Position numbers and translations under genes: made by a program. A model generated the notes under the pieces. It saw only the letters and a program-made list of their open reading frames with translations. It ran no database searches and was not told where the DNA came from. This document shows positions 485 to 33,740 of a stretch of DNA of 56,330 bases, in pieces (positions within the stretch are counted from its first letter, which is position 1; each line of letters starts with the position of its first letter). Location of the stretch: positions 1 to 56,330 of the forward strand of contig WVSO01000016.1 in NCBI GenBank assembly GCA_015689745.1, read 5' to 3'. Origin of the DNA: Rhodobacterales bacterium HKCCSP123 (lineage in GTDB: Bacteria > Pseudomonadota > Alphaproteobacteria > Rhodobacterales > Rhodobacteraceae).

Positions 485-1153
485 ATGGACCACCCGATAC
501 ACGAGATCGACTGGCGCGCAGGCCGCGTGCCGGTCTCACGGCGCTTTGACGACCCGTTCTTCTCGCTCGAGGACGGGCTTGCCGAGACGCGGCATGTCTT
601 CCTGTCGGGCAACGACCTTCCGGCGCGCTTCGGGCCCGGCTTCCACATCGCCGAACTGGGCTTCGGCACGGGGCTGAACCTGGTGGCCGCGGCCCTTGCG
701 TGGGAGGCCGAGGGGATCGACGGCCCCCTCCGCTTCACCAGTTTCGAGGCCTTCCCCCTCTCGGGCGCGGATGCGCGCGCGGCGCTCGCCGCCTTTCCCG
801 AGGCCGCACCCCTCGCCCAGGCCATCGCGGCGGCGCTCGAGGGCGACGGGCGGATCGAGACGGACAAGCTGTTGGTCCGGATCGTGTTCGGCGACGCGCG
901 CGACACCCTGCCCGCGTGGGAGGGCACGGCGGACGCCTGGTTCCTCGACGGCTTCGCGCCTGCGCGCAACCCCGAGCTGTGGGAGCCCGCCCTGATGCAG
1001 GCGGTCGCGCGCCACACAGCACCCGGCGGCACCTGCGCGACCTATTCGGCGGCAGGCGCGGTGCGCGCGGCGCTTGCGGAGGCAGGCTTCGAGGTCACAC
1101 GCCTGCCCGGCTACGGGCGCAAGCGCCACATGGTACGGGGGCGGCTGGCATGA
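485..1153 (+). CDS. mnmD: tRNA (5-methylaminomethyl-2-thiouridine) methyltransferase MnmD
   Basis: SAM-dependent methyltransferase that methylates the aminomethyl group of nm5(s2)U at the tRNA wobble position. The 222-residue product opens MDHPIHEIDWRAGRVPVSRR. It has the family signature FDDPFFS and the SAM-binding motif ELGFGTGLN (about residues 57-65), then DAWFLDGFAPARNPELW (about 155-171), typical of the DUF752 methyltransferase. It corresponds to the N-terminal half of E. coli MnmC, so here it is a stand-alone MnmD. The ATG at 485 is chosen because the family begins just before the FDDPFFS stretch; upstream in-frame codons have no family similarity. It overlaps the next gene by 4 bases (ATGA), which implies co-translation. 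Confidence 0.9.
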   Translation: MDHPIHEIDWRAGRVPVSRRFDDPFFSLEDGLAETRHVFLSGNDLPARFGPGFHIAELGFGTGLNLVAAALAWEAEGIDGPLRFTSFEAFPLSGADARAALAAFPEAAPLAQAIAAALEGDGRIETDKLLVRIVFGDARDTLPAWEGTADAWFLDGFAPARNPELWEPALMQAVARHTAPGGTCATYSAAGAVRAALAEAGFEVTRLPGYGRKRHMVRGRLA

Positions 1154-2028
1154 GCGCGCAGAACACGCGGCTGGGGATCTGGCTGATGGTGGCGACGACC
1201 TTCGTCTTCGCCATGCAGGACGGGATCAGCCGCCACCTTGCCGGCGAATACAACGTTCTGATGGTGGTGATGATCCGCTACTGGTTCTTCGCGGCCTTCG
1301 TCATCGCGATCGCCGTGCGGCACGCGGGGGGGGTGCGCGGGGCAGTGGCGACGAAGCAACCGCTGATCCAGATCACCCGCGGCGCGCTTCTGTCGGTCGA
1401 GATCTGCGTGATGGTGGCGGGGTTCGTCCTGCTCGGCCTGGTCGAAAGCCATGCGGTCTTCACCTGCTACCCGCTGCTCGTCGCGGCCCTGTCGGGGCCG
1501 GTGCTGGGGGAAAAGGTCGGCTGGCGGCGCTGGACGGCCATCGGCGTGGGGTTCGTGGGCGTGCTGATCATCCTGCAACCCGGCTTTCGCGTCTTCCAGG
1601 TCGAGGCGCTGATCCCGCTGGCGGCGGCCCTGATGTTCGCGCTTTACGGGCTGCTCACGCGCTACGCCTCGCGGAAGGATTCGACCGCCGTCAGCTTCTT
1701 CTACACCGGCACGGTCGGGGCCATCCTGATGACCGGCGTCGGCATCTGGTCCTGGGAACCCATGAGCGCGCCCGACTGGGGGTGGATGGCGCTGCTCTGC
1801 GTGACCGGGGCGACAGGGCACTGGCTTCTGATCAAGGTCTACGAGGTGGCCGAGGCCAGCGCCGTGCAGCCCTTCGCCTACCTGCAACTGGTCTTTGCCT
1901 CGGCGCTGGGGATCACCGTCTTCGGCGAAACGCTGGAGTGGAACGTCGCCGTGGGTGCCGGCCTGGTCGTGGCGGCAGGGGTGTTCACCCTCCTGCGCGC
2001 CCGCGCGAGGGAAAAGGCGGCCCGCTAG
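1150..2028 (+). CDS. EamA/DMT-superfamily transporter
   Basis: Inner-membrane protein of 292 residues with about ten hydrophobic segments and the two-repeat EamA layout. The first repeat runs from LGIWLMVATTFVFAMQDGIS and the second begins near EALIPLAAALMFALYGLL. Family members export or import small metabolites such as amino acids or nucleobases; the substrate cannot be told from sequence. The start is the ATG overlapping the mnmD stop, and no better start is available. The 3' end faces ccoS convergently across a block of palindromes that probably forms the terminator. Confidence 0.85.
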   Translation: MSAQNTRLGIWLMVATTFVFAMQDGISRHLAGEYNVLMVVMIRYWFFAAFVIAIAVRHAGGVRGAVATKQPLIQITRGALLSVEICVMVAGFVLLGLVESHAVFTCYPLLVAALSGPVLGEKVGWRRWTAIGVGFVGVLIILQPGFRVFQVEALIPLAAALMFALYGLLTRYASRKDSTAVSFFYTGTVGAILMTGVGIWSWEPMSAPDWGWMALLCVTGATGHWLLIKVYEVAEASAVQPFAYLQLVFASALGITVFGETLEWNVAVGAGLVVAAGVFTLLRARAREKAAR

Positions 2029-2032
2029 GCGA

Positions 2033-2121
2033 AAAGGGTCTTGCAAGACCCTTTCCAGCCTTTTGCAAAAGGCTGGCCAGAGCCTTGCAAGGCTCCGGGG
2101 CAGCGTCTTGCAAGACGCTGC
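2033..2121. repeat. Array of four TTGCAA-centred palindromes
   Basis: Four perfect palindromes lie side by side: 2033-2054 (22 nt), 2055-2076 (22 nt), 2080-2095 (16 nt, GAGCCTTGCAAGGCTC) and 2100-2121 (22 nt). Each has TTGCAA at its centre but different flanking arms, so they are related by plan and not by simple duplication. Centres are 22, 22 and 23 nt apart, close to two helical turns. The array fills the gap between the convergent EamA gene and ccoS. Each unit could fold as RNA from either strand, so a two-way terminator is the plain reading; a protein-binding array is an alternative. Confidence 0.85.
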
Positions 2122-2133
2122 ATGGCATCGGGA

Positions 2134-2292
2134 TCAACTCTTCGGCCTGTCGTCGTAATCGTCGCGCAGGATGCGGTGGGCATCGCCCTCGGGGTCCTCG
2201 AACTGGCCCTTGCGCAGCATCCACCAGAAGGCCACGAGCCCGACAAGCCCCAGGAAGAGGCTGACGGGGATCAGCAGGCCGAGGATATCCAT
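2134..2292 (-). CDS. ccoS: cbb3 oxidase maturation protein CcoS
   Basis: A 52-residue protein (MDILGLLIPVSLFLGLVGLV..., ending DDYDDRPKS) with one N-terminal membrane helix (about residues 4-26), a WWMLRKGQFEDPEGDA turn and an acidic tail, which is the standard CcoS pattern. CcoS is needed for cofactor insertion into the cbb3-type cytochrome oxidase. It is the last gene of ccoGHIS and starts 7 bases after the ccoI stop. Confidence 0.92.
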   Translation of the reverse strand: MDILGLLIPVSLFLGLVGLVAFWWMLRKGQFEDPEGDAHRILRDDYDDRPKS

Positions 2293-2299
2293 GAGGCGC

Positions 2300-4483
2300 T
2301 CACTTCAGGCGGAGGGCGTTCAGCGACACGGTAATCGACGACATCGACATCGCCAAGGCCGCGATCAGCGGCGAGCAGAGCCCCGCCACCGCCAGCGGCA
2401 CGGCGAGCACGTTGTAGACGGTCGCGATGGTGAAATTCTCGCGGATGCGGGCCCGGGCAGAGACCGAGGTCCGCATTGCATCCGCGATGGGCGCAAGGCT
2501 CCGGCCCGTCAGCACCATGTCGGATGCCGTGCGCGCCGCCTCGAGCGCCGAAGCGGGCGAGATCGAGACATGGGCGGCGGCCAGCGCCGCCGTGTCGTTC
2601 AGCCCGTCGCCCACCATCAGGACCCTCGCGCCGTCTTCCGACAGCTCGGCCACCAGCGCGGCCTTTTCCTGCGGCAGCGCCTCGGCGATGACCTCGTCGA
2701 TGCCGATGCGGGCGGCGAAACGGGTGACGGCGGCTTCGGTGTCGCCCGAGATCAGGACGATGCGCTTGCCCTGCGCCTTCAGCGCCCGAACCACGTCCTC
2801 GGCGCCGTCGCGGAGCGTATCGGCGAAGGTGACGGTCGTCGGCTCGGCGGCCCCGATCCGCAGGAAGGTCGCGGTCTCGGCGGGTGCGGCGGCCCCGACC
2901 CAGGCGGCGCGACCCAGCTGGACACGCTCTCCCCGCCAGGTGCCCTCGACACCGAAGCCCGGCACCTCCCGAAGCCCCTCCACATGCGCCGGCCGCACCC
3001 CGCGTCCGGCAAGACCGCGCGCAAGGCTCTCGGCCAGCGGATGCGACGATCCCTGCGCGAGCGCCAGAGCGACGCGCGCCGCCGCTTCCGGCAAATGGTC
3101 GAGATCCGTCGGGGTGGGTGCGCCATTCGTCAGCGTCCCCGTCTTGTCGAAGACGACCGTGTCGGCCTCGGCCAGCCGCTCCAGCGCGGTGCCGTCCTTG
3201 ATCAGGAGACCCTTGCGGAACAGCCGCCCCGAGGCGGCGGTTGTCACCGCGGGCACGGCAAGCCCCAGCGCGCAGGGGCAAGTGATGATCAGGACGGCGG
3301 CCGCGATGTTCAGCGCGACGCGCAGGTCCTGTGTGTAGAGATACCAGCCCACCGCCGAGACGAAGGACAGGATATGCACCCCCGGCGCATAAAGCTTCGC
3401 TGCCTGGTCGGCGAGCGAGGTGTAGTTGTTGCGCCCGGCCTCGGCCACGGCGACTAGGTCCGCGATGCGGTGCAGTGCGGTGTCCTGCCCGGCGGCCATC
3501 ACCTCGACGGTCAGGGGCCCGGTCAGGTTCACCTCGCCCGCGCTGACCACGCTGTTCTCGCCCGCGAAGGCGGGCAGGCTTTCGCCGGTCATCAGGCTGC
3601 GGTCGATCTCGGACTGGCCCGCGATCACGCGGCCATCGACGGGGATGCGCCCGCCGGGTTTCACCCGGACGATGTCGCCCGCGCGGAGCTCGGCGACCGA
3701 AACGGTCTCTTCCCCTGCAGGGCCGACGCGCAGCGCGCGCGGCACTTCCAGCGCGGCCAGTTCCTGCGCGGCGGACCGTGCCGAGGCGCGTGTCCGATGG
3801 TCGAGGTAACGGCCGCCCAGGAGGAAGAAACACAGCATCACCGCCGCGTCGAAATAGGCATGATGCCCCGAGAGGATCGTCTCGTAGAGCGAGGTGCCCA
3901 TCGCCAGCGCGATCGCCAGCGTGATCGGCACGTCCATGTTGAGCCTGCGCGCCTTCAGCGCGCTCCAGGCCGAGACGTAGAAGGGCCGCCCCGAGAAGAT
4001 CACCGCCGGGATCGCGATCAGCGCGCTGATCCAGTGCATCATGTCGCGGGTCACGCCCTCGGCCCCCGACCAGACGGCGACGGACAGCAGCATGACGTTC
4101 ATCATCGCGAAGAACGCGACGGCCAGCCGCATCAGCAGGTCGCGGCCCTGCCGGTCGGCCTCGGTCGTGGCGAGCACGCCGGGATCGAGTTCGTGGGCCT
4201 CGTAGCCCGCGCGCTCCAGAACCTCGCAAAGATCCTCGGCGGAAACCTCCGGTCCGGCCTCGACCGCGGCGCGGCGCAGCGTCAGGTTCACGCGTGCATC
4301 GCGCACGCCCGGAACCCGCGTCAGCGCCTTCTCCACCCCCGAGATGCAGCCCGCGCAATGGATACCCGGCAGCGACAGCATCAGCGTCGCGTCCACGGGC
4401 CACGCGGCCAACTCCTCGGCCGAAGGCGCGACCGAGCAGGCCGGGCAGGCGGCGGGCCGGGAGTGTTCGAAGGTGGCGGTCAC
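2300..4483 (-). CDS. ccoI: Copper-exporting P1B-type ATPase CcoI/FixI
   Basis: A 727-residue heavy-metal ATPase that moves copper across the inner membrane for assembly of the CuB centre of cbb3 oxidase. Visible motifs: an N-terminal CPAC pair (residues 13-16), an HMA metal-binding site GIHCAGC (Cys43, Cys46), the ion-path motif CPCALGLAVPA, the phosphorylation site DKTGTLTNG, and the hinge motif GDGLNDTAALAA. The GTG at 4483 is chosen as start because a GAGGG ribosome-binding sequence sits about 9 bases upstream; it lies 10 bases past the ccoH stop. An in-frame upstream ATG at 4552 would run into ccoH and lacks family similarity. Confidence 0.95.
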   Translation of the reverse strand: MTATFEHSRPAACPACSVAPSAEELAAWPVDATLMLSLPGIHCAGCISGVEKALTRVPGVRDARVNLTLRRAAVEAGPEVSAEDLCEVLERAGYEAHELDPGVLATTEADRQGRDLLMRLAVAFFAMMNVMLLSVAVWSGAEGVTRDMMHWISALIAIPAVIFSGRPFYVSAWSALKARRLNMDVPITLAIALAMGTSLYETILSGHHAYFDAAVMLCFFLLGGRYLDHRTRASARSAAQELAALEVPRALRVGPAGEETVSVAELRAGDIVRVKPGGRIPVDGRVIAGQSEIDRSLMTGESLPAFAGENSVVSAGEVNLTGPLTVEVMAAGQDTALHRIADLVAVAEAGRNNYTSLADQAAKLYAPGVHILSFVSAVGWYLYTQDLRVALNIAAAVLIITCPCALGLAVPAVTTAASGRLFRKGLLIKDGTALERLAEADTVVFDKTGTLTNGAPTPTDLDHLPEAAARVALALAQGSSHPLAESLARGLAGRGVRPAHVEGLREVPGFGVEGTWRGERVQLGRAAWVGAAAPAETATFLRIGAAEPTTVTFADTLRDGAEDVVRALKAQGKRIVLISGDTEAAVTRFAARIGIDEVIAEALPQEKAALVAELSEDGARVLMVGDGLNDTAALAAAHVSISPASALEAARTASDMVLTGRSLAPIADAMRTSVSARARIRENFTIATVYNVLAVPLAVAGLCSPLIAALAMSMSSITVSLNALRLK

Positions 4484-4493
4484 CGCTTGGCCC

Positions 4494-4979
4494 TCAGTCG
4501 AAATGGCGGAAGGTGATGTTGTGGCGGTAGTCGGTCCCGTCGCGTGCGGCACCCGTCAGGCGCAGGCGCCACAGCCCGTTGCCGAGCGTGACCGGGGCGA
4601 CGAAGGCACCGTTCACGCGCTGCAGGACCAGCACCTGGTCCTCGGTCTGGTTCGTGGGACGGGTCAGGAGTGCCGTCAGTTCGGCAGGTGCCACCGGCGC
4701 ACCGGCATCGTCGACGAGATGCAGGACAAGCGTGCCGTCGCCGGGGATCTCGATGCTGGCGTTCCATCCCAGCGCCTCTTGCGCATAGCGGCGTTCGTCG
4801 AAGGTCTGGCTGTCGGCGTAGCTCGACGAGACCTCCATGCCGGGAAAGGTCGACACGGCGTTCCACGCCATGAAGACATTGACCCCGATGATGATGCCGA
4901 AGCCGGTCACGAAGATCGCCAGCACGTGCCAGCCGGTCAGCTTGGGCCCCGTGTCGGGCATGTTTGCCTCCGCACTCAT
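4494..4979 (-). CDS. ccoH: cbb3 oxidase maturation protein CcoH/FixH
   Basis: A 161-residue membrane-anchored protein with one N-terminal helix (WHVLAIFVTGFGIIIGVNVFM, about residues 16-36) and a periplasmic domain with the FixH-type motifs FPGMEVSSSYADSQ and YAQEALGW. It is required with CcoG and CcoI for stable assembly of cbb3 oxidase and is often found with its subunits. It overlaps the ccoG stop by 4 bases (ATGA), so the two are translationally coupled. Confidence 0.93.
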   Translation of the reverse strand: MSAEANMPDTGPKLTGWHVLAIFVTGFGIIIGVNVFMAWNAVSTFPGMEVSSSYADSQTFDERRYAQEALGWNASIEIPGDGTLVLHLVDDAGAPVAPAELTALLTRPTNQTEDQVLVLQRVNGAFVAPVTLGNGLWRLRLTGAARDGTDYRHNITFRHFD

Positions 4980-29783: not shown

Positions 29784-29848
29784 CGTTTTCCTGCAGGAAA
29801 ACGAAACCGGAAAACTGCAGTTTTCCGCGGTGTCCGCGCGAACACCGC
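29784..29848. repeat. Array of three palindromes, two centred on CTGCAG
   Basis: In the convergent gap between 29777 and 29856 lie two perfect 20-nt palindromes, CGTTTTCCTGCAGGAAAACG (29784-29803) and CGGAAAACTGCAGTTTTCCG (29808-29827), then a 22-nt one with a single mismatched pair (29827-29848). Centres are 24 and 20 nt apart. It probably acts as a two-way terminator, with the same plan as the array at 2033-2121. Confidence 0.8.
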
Positions 29849-33623: not shown

Positions 33624-33678
33624 GGGGATTTCGCCCGCTGGCGCGGCCGACCCGCGCGCCGCTGGCGCGGCGCGGATG

Positions 33679-33740
33679 CGAATTTTCGTACGAAAATTCG
33701 GGGGGCTCTGCCCCCGTCCTTCGGACTCCCCCGGGATATT
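33679..33740. repeat. Palindrome and hairpin cluster between tlpA and tag
   Basis: A perfect 22-nt palindrome centred on CGTACG (33679-33700) is followed by a hairpin GGGGGC-TCT-GCCCCC (33701-33715), a small hairpin GTCC-TTC-GGAC (33716-33726) and CCCCCGGGATATTT. I recall this kind of tail (CTCTGCCCCC...GGATATTT) as frequent at gene ends in Rhodobacterales genomes. It is probably a two-way terminator in this convergent gap. Confidence 0.75.

Follow-up and report, generated by a model that had tools for sequence, protein, structure and literature searches.

A row of four hairpins behind the stop codon: an interspersed palindromic element of Rhodobacteraceae as a candidate gene-end signal

Between the stop codons of a gene for an EamA-family transporter and of ccoS, the gene for a cbb3 oxidase maturation protein, lies a spacer of 105 nt which is filled by four TTGCAA-centred palindromes (22, 22, 16 and 22 nt). 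The locus raises the question of what such a row is, and whether it acts as RNA, as DNA or is simply a repeat that has come to rest there. An earlier note on the window, by which we mean the whole analysed stretch of 56,330 nt, had reported the four palindromes at 2033-2121 with these lengths and with steps of 22, 22 and 23 nt between their centres, and all of this was recovered exactly.

The array at the EamA/ccoS junction

The features of the junction are as follows.

1111..2028, + strand: EamA-family transporter gene (Pfam PF00892, E 8.9e-22), its stop codon (2026-2028) adjoining the array; the start codon is uncertain, 1111 or 1150, and the gene caller gave 1150-2028
2033..2054: unit 1 (outer), perfect palindrome AAAGGGTC-TTGCAA-GACCCTTT of 22 nt, beginning 4 nt past the EamA stop
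2055..2076: unit 2 (inner), perfect palindrome CCAGCCTT-TTGCAA-AAGGCTGG of 22 nt, with no gap to unit 1
2077..2098: unit 3 (inner), CCAGAGCC-TTGCAA-GGCTCCGG, perfect over 2080-2095 (16 nt) with one mismatched pair beyond
2100..2121: unit 4 (outer), perfect palindrome GCAGCGTC-TTGCAA-GACGCTGC of 22 nt, ending 12 nt short of the ccoS stop
2134..2292, - strand: ccoS/fixS, cbb3 oxidase maturation protein (Pfam PF03597, E 3.4e-23), convergent with the EamA gene, stop codon at 2134-2136
2300..4552, - strand: metal-type P-type ATPase gene (Pfam PF00122, PF00702, PF00403) upstream of ccoS, presumably ccoI/fixI, a name taken from the gene order

The third palindrome had been described as a 16-mer, which is correct for its perfect core, but the unit is really a 22-mer with a single mismatched pair; its orthologue in the related genome G010 is perfect over 22 nt. 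TTGCAA occurs five times in the window, four of these within the array. Palindromes of at least 16, 18, 20 and 22 nt number 12, 7, 6 and 4, compared to means of 3.3, 0.95, 0.2 and 0.05 in a control of 20 first-order Markov sequences for the whole window. RNA folding of the spacer gave z values of -4.75 for the plus and -5.87 for the minus strand, with none of 200 shuffles equally good, and the same four hairpins are formed by either strand. At the EamA end of the array the minus strand reads CTTTTCGC, in which a run of four T residues is located partly within the stem, and a consensus terminator scanner found no terminator at the array. Rfam yielded no match in the whole window; a search restricted to 1980-2180 returned 27 matches up to E 5, all of them far under the gathering cut-off (the best, mir-3130, at 32 vs. 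95 bits), and a known RNA family was accordingly rejected.

Architecture and paired evolution of the arrays

In the whole genome of the window (G000), TTGCAA pairs 12-28 nt apart are found 64 times and the reversed pattern not once. The excess over shuffled sequence on which the earlier note had staked its proposal is thus large, both for palindromes against Markov sequences and for TTGCAA pairs genome-wide. Such pairs are abundant in four of 13 genomes from the genus (64, 66, 68 and 86) and few (2-8) in the other nine. We aligned 17 arrays, namely 15 from G000 and the orthologues of the window array in G010 and G011, and built from them a covariance model, R1; a second model, R2, was built on arrays of G053 and G063, which represent two other genera. 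In the 17-array alignment, 98.9% of 526 pair cells are standard, with one G-U cell, and double changes are present in 26 of 31 pairs; on either the pairing or the double-change measure, 0 of 500 shuffles were as high, and further pair types were not above the shuffles (45 vs. 47.6). Of the 15 rows from G053 and G063 one was dropped as out of register, and in the remaining 14 arrays, one of them off by one in unit 3, 98.9% of 448 cells pair, with double changes in 16 of 32 pairs. Orthologous units of G000 and G011 comprise 371 pair cells (two non-alignable units being set aside), of which 304 are the same, 54 have undergone double compensatory changes and 13 are broken on one side. For the closer pair, G000 and G010, the 427 cells divide into 401 identical, 11 double, 14 one-sided and one broken in both, so that here one-sided changes are no rarer than double ones, which weighs against the gene-end reading. 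Thus, the suggestion that core and pairing are kept while the arms vary was borne out in the aligned arrays as well as in orthologous units.

For a wider comparison, arrays of at least three units were catalogued from the stretches fetched for five genomes, using a home-made gene caller and requiring of each unit a TTNNAA core with no more than one mismatch among the six core-adjacent pairs. Arrays identical from core to core were entered once, by which at least one distinct G063 copy was dropped. The catalogue holds 92 arrays (20 from G000, 21 from G010, 28 from G011, 16 from G053 and 7 from G063). Four units are present in 73 of them, three in 15 and five in 4, a distribution to be read in view of the stretches of G010, G011, G053 and G063 having been obtained largely via R1, which is itself a four-unit model; in G000, where stretches were picked by TTGCAA pairs or randomly, four units occur in 17 of 20 arrays. 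Neighbouring units in the Roseicyclus group (G000, G010 and G011) are mostly spaced by 22-23 nt and those in G053 and G063 by 23-25 nt, with a mean step of 22.5 bp in the window's own genome and of 23.7 and 24.2 bp in the two other genera. At 10.5 bp per turn this amounts to an angle of 41-109 degrees per step over the five genomes. The proposed helical phasing, with all cores on one face of the DNA, therefore had to be abandoned, and with it a phased cooperative operator array.

The 6-nt core is conserved, the arms are not. Nearly all cores in the Roseicyclus group are TTGCAA. The four-unit arrays of G053 read exactly TTCGAA-TTGCAA-TTGCAA-TTCGAA in 11 of 15 cases, and all seven of G063 have TTCGAA outside and TTGCAA, TTCCAA or TTGGAA inside. 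In all three Roseicyclus genomes the inner arms are higher in G+C than the outer ones (P 0.00035 or less), the genomes not being independent as many orthologous arrays are shared. Core order and inner-arm G+C together indicate that the row is symmetric, outer-inner-inner-outer. The 77 units of G000 have 40 different arms, some of which recur (AGAGCC eight times); in G063, arms recur by position, and near-identical hairpins are present in many copies. There, the majority share is 0.93 for arms and 0.97 for cores, compared to 0.71 for linkers and 0.62 for flanks (n = 7). An arm is repeated within an array in 0/20, 0/21 and 1/28 cases, where permutation gives 3.4, 3.5 and 5.1; we nevertheless do not claim distinctness of the arms within an array as a guard against cross-pairing, since with separate outer and inner pools P for four-unit arrays was only 0.03, 0.12 and 0.09.

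Spread, inheritance and placement at gene ends

R1 places, defined by an E value of 1e-4 or better with both strands counted once, number 28 in G000, 27 in G010, 31-32 in G011, 20 in G063 and 36 in G053, the weaker ones not all being four-unit TTGCAA arrays. In a family sample of 295 genomes, each of another genus, R1 found matches (E 0.001 or better) in 38 and R2 in 29, the union being 43. Matching loci that were inspected carry two to four hairpins with TTGCAA, TTCGAA, TTCCAA, TTTGAA and similar loops (in two displays the hairpins fell outside the stretch shown), so that these 43 genomes are to be regarded as having relatives of the element and not strict four-unit arrays. In a class sample, R1 matched 2 of 289 genomes, both from the family of the window. 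A pattern scan of named genomes gave at least 115 loci. A looser test, in which two or more TTNNAA palindromes suffice and each may have one mismatch, is passed by 20 chains among the matches listed, 17 of which are from Rhodobacteraceae, two from one horse-gut Bacteroidaceae MAG and one from a Melainabacteria MAG. In searches of the open-licence full text of PubMed Central, no description of such an element was recognised. The arrays apparently form a hitherto undescribed kind of gene-end signal, and we class them as a new family of 3'-end elements that are palindromic, extragenic and interspersed.

Two observations may be added on the margins of this distribution. In the horse-gut MAG (JAKSLM01; L145 and L205), which belongs to an unrelated phylum, CTTGCAAG repeats every 22 nt as imperfect palindromes, and several contigs fit the array pattern among the matches listed. 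An array in the window's own genome that is matched by R2 (L440, G000:C119:11638-11734) has the cores TTCGAA, TTCGAA, TTTCAA and TTCGAA with steps of 24, 23 and 24 nt, and in this resembles the type that prevails in other genera.

The arrays sit at gene ends. Of the 92, 50 are located between convergent and 40 between co-directional genes, none between divergent ones, and two are undetermined. The predicted placement at convergent gene ends thus holds with respect to gene ends and for the convergent 50, but extends to the co-directional junctions. If 20% of junctions are divergent and the arrays are independent, the absence of divergent cases among 90 has a P of 2e-9. The gene end is at most 16 nt from the array in 114 of 141 cases (median 9), and 37 of 41 neighbouring gene starts are at least 25 nt away; distances of up to 3,000 nt indicate genes missed by the caller, so single contexts may be wrong. 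Hairpins in general, whether in arrays or not, are abundant in convergent and scarce in divergent spacers. Besides ccoS and EamA, 20 neighbours were scanned, among them SSB, transketolase, glutamine synthetase-like, penicillin amidase, 3-hydroxyacyl-CoA dehydrogenase and DUF3422 proteins, and no functional theme appeared among them. The excess, the conservation of the core and the placement at gene ends together support the view that these are special arrays and more than simple terminators.

Array sites are inherited within the Roseicyclus group. An array lies beside an orthologous neighbour for 16 of the 20 G000 arrays in G010 and for 15 of 20 in G011 (both neighbours are orthologous in 12 pairs each), and the order of the units is mostly kept at such sites. 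When the Roseicyclus genomes are compared with G053 or G063, of which 16 and 7 arrays were available, at most one array has an orthologous neighbour. Relatives devoid of arrays have something else, or next to nothing, at the same junctions. At the ccoS/EamA junction, the spacers of nine relatives without the array range from about 9 to 76 nt and contain other hairpin repeats, direct repeats or almost nothing. At a second junction (J2, AMP-binding enzyme/DUF3422), found in seven array-free relatives, the spacer measures 91-133 nt and differs in sequence from the array; six of the seven have a hairpin of 8 bp or longer there. In four array-bearing genomes this other sequence is gone and the array alone is present. 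As nothing else is left there, the array takes up the whole spacer from stop to stop. At a third (J3, acyltransferase/3-hydroxyacyl-CoA dehydrogenase), the nine array-free relatives fall into six with 12-30 nt that hold no hairpin of 7 bp or more and three with 101-115 nt. At the ccoS/EamA junction and J3, several close relatives manage with spacers of about 9-30 nt that lack hairpins of the array kind, and the element is dispensable there. Phylogenies of the flanking genes do not agree on the history. ccoI alone and concatenations of three and six proteins group G011 with the array-free G001 (support 1.000), whereas the trees of eamA (0.952), J2L (0.923) and J2R (0.629) place it beside G000/G010, and two J3 protein trees put it elsewhere; given this conflict, the trees would accommodate either loss in G001 or a single later gain.

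Some array-free spacers have features of their own. At the ccoS/EamA junction, a GTAGGGTGGGCAATCTGCCCACC hairpin repeat is found in G005 and G002 (L077, L078) instead of the array, and in G004 (L076) the 3' end of ccoS carries direct repeats of CTTGGGCCCCTCAGGA, each about 17 nt long, in tandem. The array-free J2 spacers (L399-L405) contain a G-rich block, several of them with a GGGGGCAGACAGCCCCC-type hairpin resembling another repeated gene-end element.

Possible roles of the element

The placement argues for a function at transcript ends. Because each unit is palindromic, both strands yield the same four RNA hairpins, so that one element could serve transcripts from either side. At least four T residues within the first 8 nt were present at only one of the 141 exits from arrays; 38 T-tailed hairpins occur in those stretches of the same genomes that were folded, mostly with other loops. 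Downstream of co-directional arrays C outnumbers G in 27 of 31 cases, compared to 129 of 245 control spacers (G000 8/9, G010 4/6, G011 7/7, G053 6/7, G063 2/2), a count in which some orthologous arrays recur and which is weak in G010. C-rich sequence has the look of a Rho loading region, and 3'-5' exonuclease trimming halts at stem-loops. With middling confidence, we consider that the array belongs to an interspersed Rhodobacteraceae element of four hairpins, of which it is one copy, and that the element serves at the 3' end of one flanking gene or of both, most likely as a two-way RNA barrier operating together with Rho-type termination; we infer that the hairpins act as RNA and that Rho takes part. 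Transcription would pass through the element and stop beyond it, most likely by Rho, as the arrays are without U-tracts and the sequence downstream is C-rich and G-poor. 3'-5' exonucleases would then trim the RNA back to the row of hairpins, which would protect the mRNA and set its end, and the four units might provide redundancy against the exonuclease. According to PMC7815308, 3'-5' exonucleases process the 3' ends left by Rho termination.

Similar arrangements are known from E. coli. The 3' hairpins that guard Rho-terminated transcripts are likewise strong hairpins after an ORF, with no U-tract and C-rich sequence beyond, but each is a single arbitrary hairpin, whereas the arrays have four with a family signature. 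Gene-end inverted repeats with cruciform potential are also concentrated after stop codons, but most of these, according to excerpts of PMC6060812, belong to intrinsic terminators, whereas the arrays have no U-tracts. REP/BIME elements are described in parts of PMC3733652 as interspersed palindromic units, often clustered, downstream of coding regions and mainly in gaps between convergent or co-directional genes. Sections of PMC12306157, citing an earlier study, place many E. coli REPs 1-20 nt from the end of an ORF and report that REPs within 15 nt of the stop codon stall ribosomes. Our arrays resemble them in lying between convergent (50 of 92) or co-directional (40) genes and never between divergent ones. 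They differ in that, in the Roseicyclus group, cores are conserved and arms are not, whereas REPs are a conserved palindrome sequence repeated genome-wide, and in that an array usually consists of four near-perfect palindromes at narrow spacing. The GTAG/CTAC tag is present at none of 357 unit ends and anywhere in 3 of 92 arrays; CGTC/GACG occurs anywhere in 45 of 92, and some arms read ACGTCC. In its way of working the element is comparable to a BIME/REP cluster or to a protective hairpin at the 3' end, yet it lacks those defining REP traits that were tested, the GTAG tag, the conserved palindrome sequence and RAYT, as well as the U-tract of an intrinsic terminator.

The pairing itself bears on whether RNA alone is involved. 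In co-directional arrays, 650 of 654 pair cells are Watson-Crick, one is G-U, one A-C and two are other, as counted in a catalogue that admits at most one mismatch in these six pairs per unit. Counting inner pairs, array hairpins have G-U in 8 of 840, whereas T-tailed terminators have it in 8 of 266 and the remaining stable 3' hairpins, a class still including some unflagged TTGCAA hairpins, in 71 of 1218. A role solely in sense RNA would tolerate G-U, and its near absence even at co-directional junctions counts against such a restricted role. The scarcity fits a constraint at the DNA level, maintenance by template switching, or strong selection for stability on two strands. Accordingly, the near-strict Watson-Crick symmetry, one-way junctions included, may reflect a role of the DNA. 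It might tentatively be speculated that the element is an undescribed, family-wide and strand-symmetric gene-end device in which a dedicated factor reads the TTGCAA/TTCGAA cores while the hairpins are maintained at the DNA level.

A device acting purely on DNA appears unlikely. It would have a protein or cruciform extrusion act on the palindromes in duplex or single-stranded DNA, the cores being read and the arms merely symmetric, and proposed roles are an insulator between colliding transcription units or the control of supercoiling or replication. In line with this are the conserved cores, their symmetric order in G053 and G063, the higher G+C of inner arms in three genomes and the fact that both strands keep Watson-Crick symmetry almost perfectly, co-directional junctions included. 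However, the steps are unphased and differ between genera, the arms vary freely, which operators do not, and the absence from divergent (promoter) regions together with the strict position after stop codons points to transcripts.

We likewise think it improbable that the arrays are a selfish or neutral dispersed repeat, MITE-like or REP-like, which is least harmful after stops and whose palindromy is restored by template switching during replication and not by selection. The near-identical hairpins in many copies in G063 speak for it, as do the different placement between genera and the same junctions being empty or different in relatives, and quasipalindrome template switching is known in E. 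coli, as reported in portions of PMC7202029. Plain copying would not predict, however, that linkers and flanks in G063 are less conserved than arms and cores (n = 7). Arrays are kept at orthologous sites in G000 and G011, and drift alone would probably keep neither the usual four units nor fixed cores. A Y1/RAYT transposase (PF01797) had no match in G000 and was not associated with R1 across 295 genera (5 of 38 R1-positive genera vs. 25 of 257 others; Fisher P 0.56). The palindrome-inserting element of the REP/RAYT type considered in the earlier note was rejected on these grounds and for want of GTAG tags.

Very unlikely, finally, is a chance row of ordinary bidirectional intrinsic terminators: GC-rich hairpins right after stop codons, the frequent convergent junctions, a mean array folding energy of -49.9 kcal/mol and the T4 run at one side of the window array recall such terminators, tandem ones included, but 140 of 141 exits are without a U-tract, that T4 run is partly in the stem, T-tailed hairpins coexist in the same genomes mostly with other loops, and the shared core in the loop, the usual four units and the narrow spacing would be left unexplained, so that the canonical form was rejected.

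How transcripts end without U-tracts in high-G+C bacteria is a live question. The element is discrete, countable and computationally detectable; its architecture is narrow, its covariation strong and its placement clear, and two covariance models are at hand to find it. Its presence or absence at the same junctions in sister species offers natural comparisons of the effects of gene-end hairpins, and it provides a natural setting in which selection on RNA, selection on DNA and template-switch mutation can be compared as ways of maintaining palindromes.

Two further junctions of the window had been said to follow the same plan. Both are indeed convergent and have paired hairpins or palindromes, but neither is a TTGCAA array. 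The first (29784-29848) has two 20-nt CTGCAG-centred palindromes 24 nt apart (29784-29827) and a third hairpin; arrays with CTGCAG, CTCGAG or CCCGGG cores at a spacing of about 23 nt are also found elsewhere in G000 (L069:9649-9715) and in G011 (L294, L297 and L298). In the second (33655-33700), a hairpin with the loop CTGG precedes a CGTACG palindrome of 22 nt, the two centres being 25 nt apart, and a similar CTGGCG/CGTACG pair is located at L060:10601-10675.
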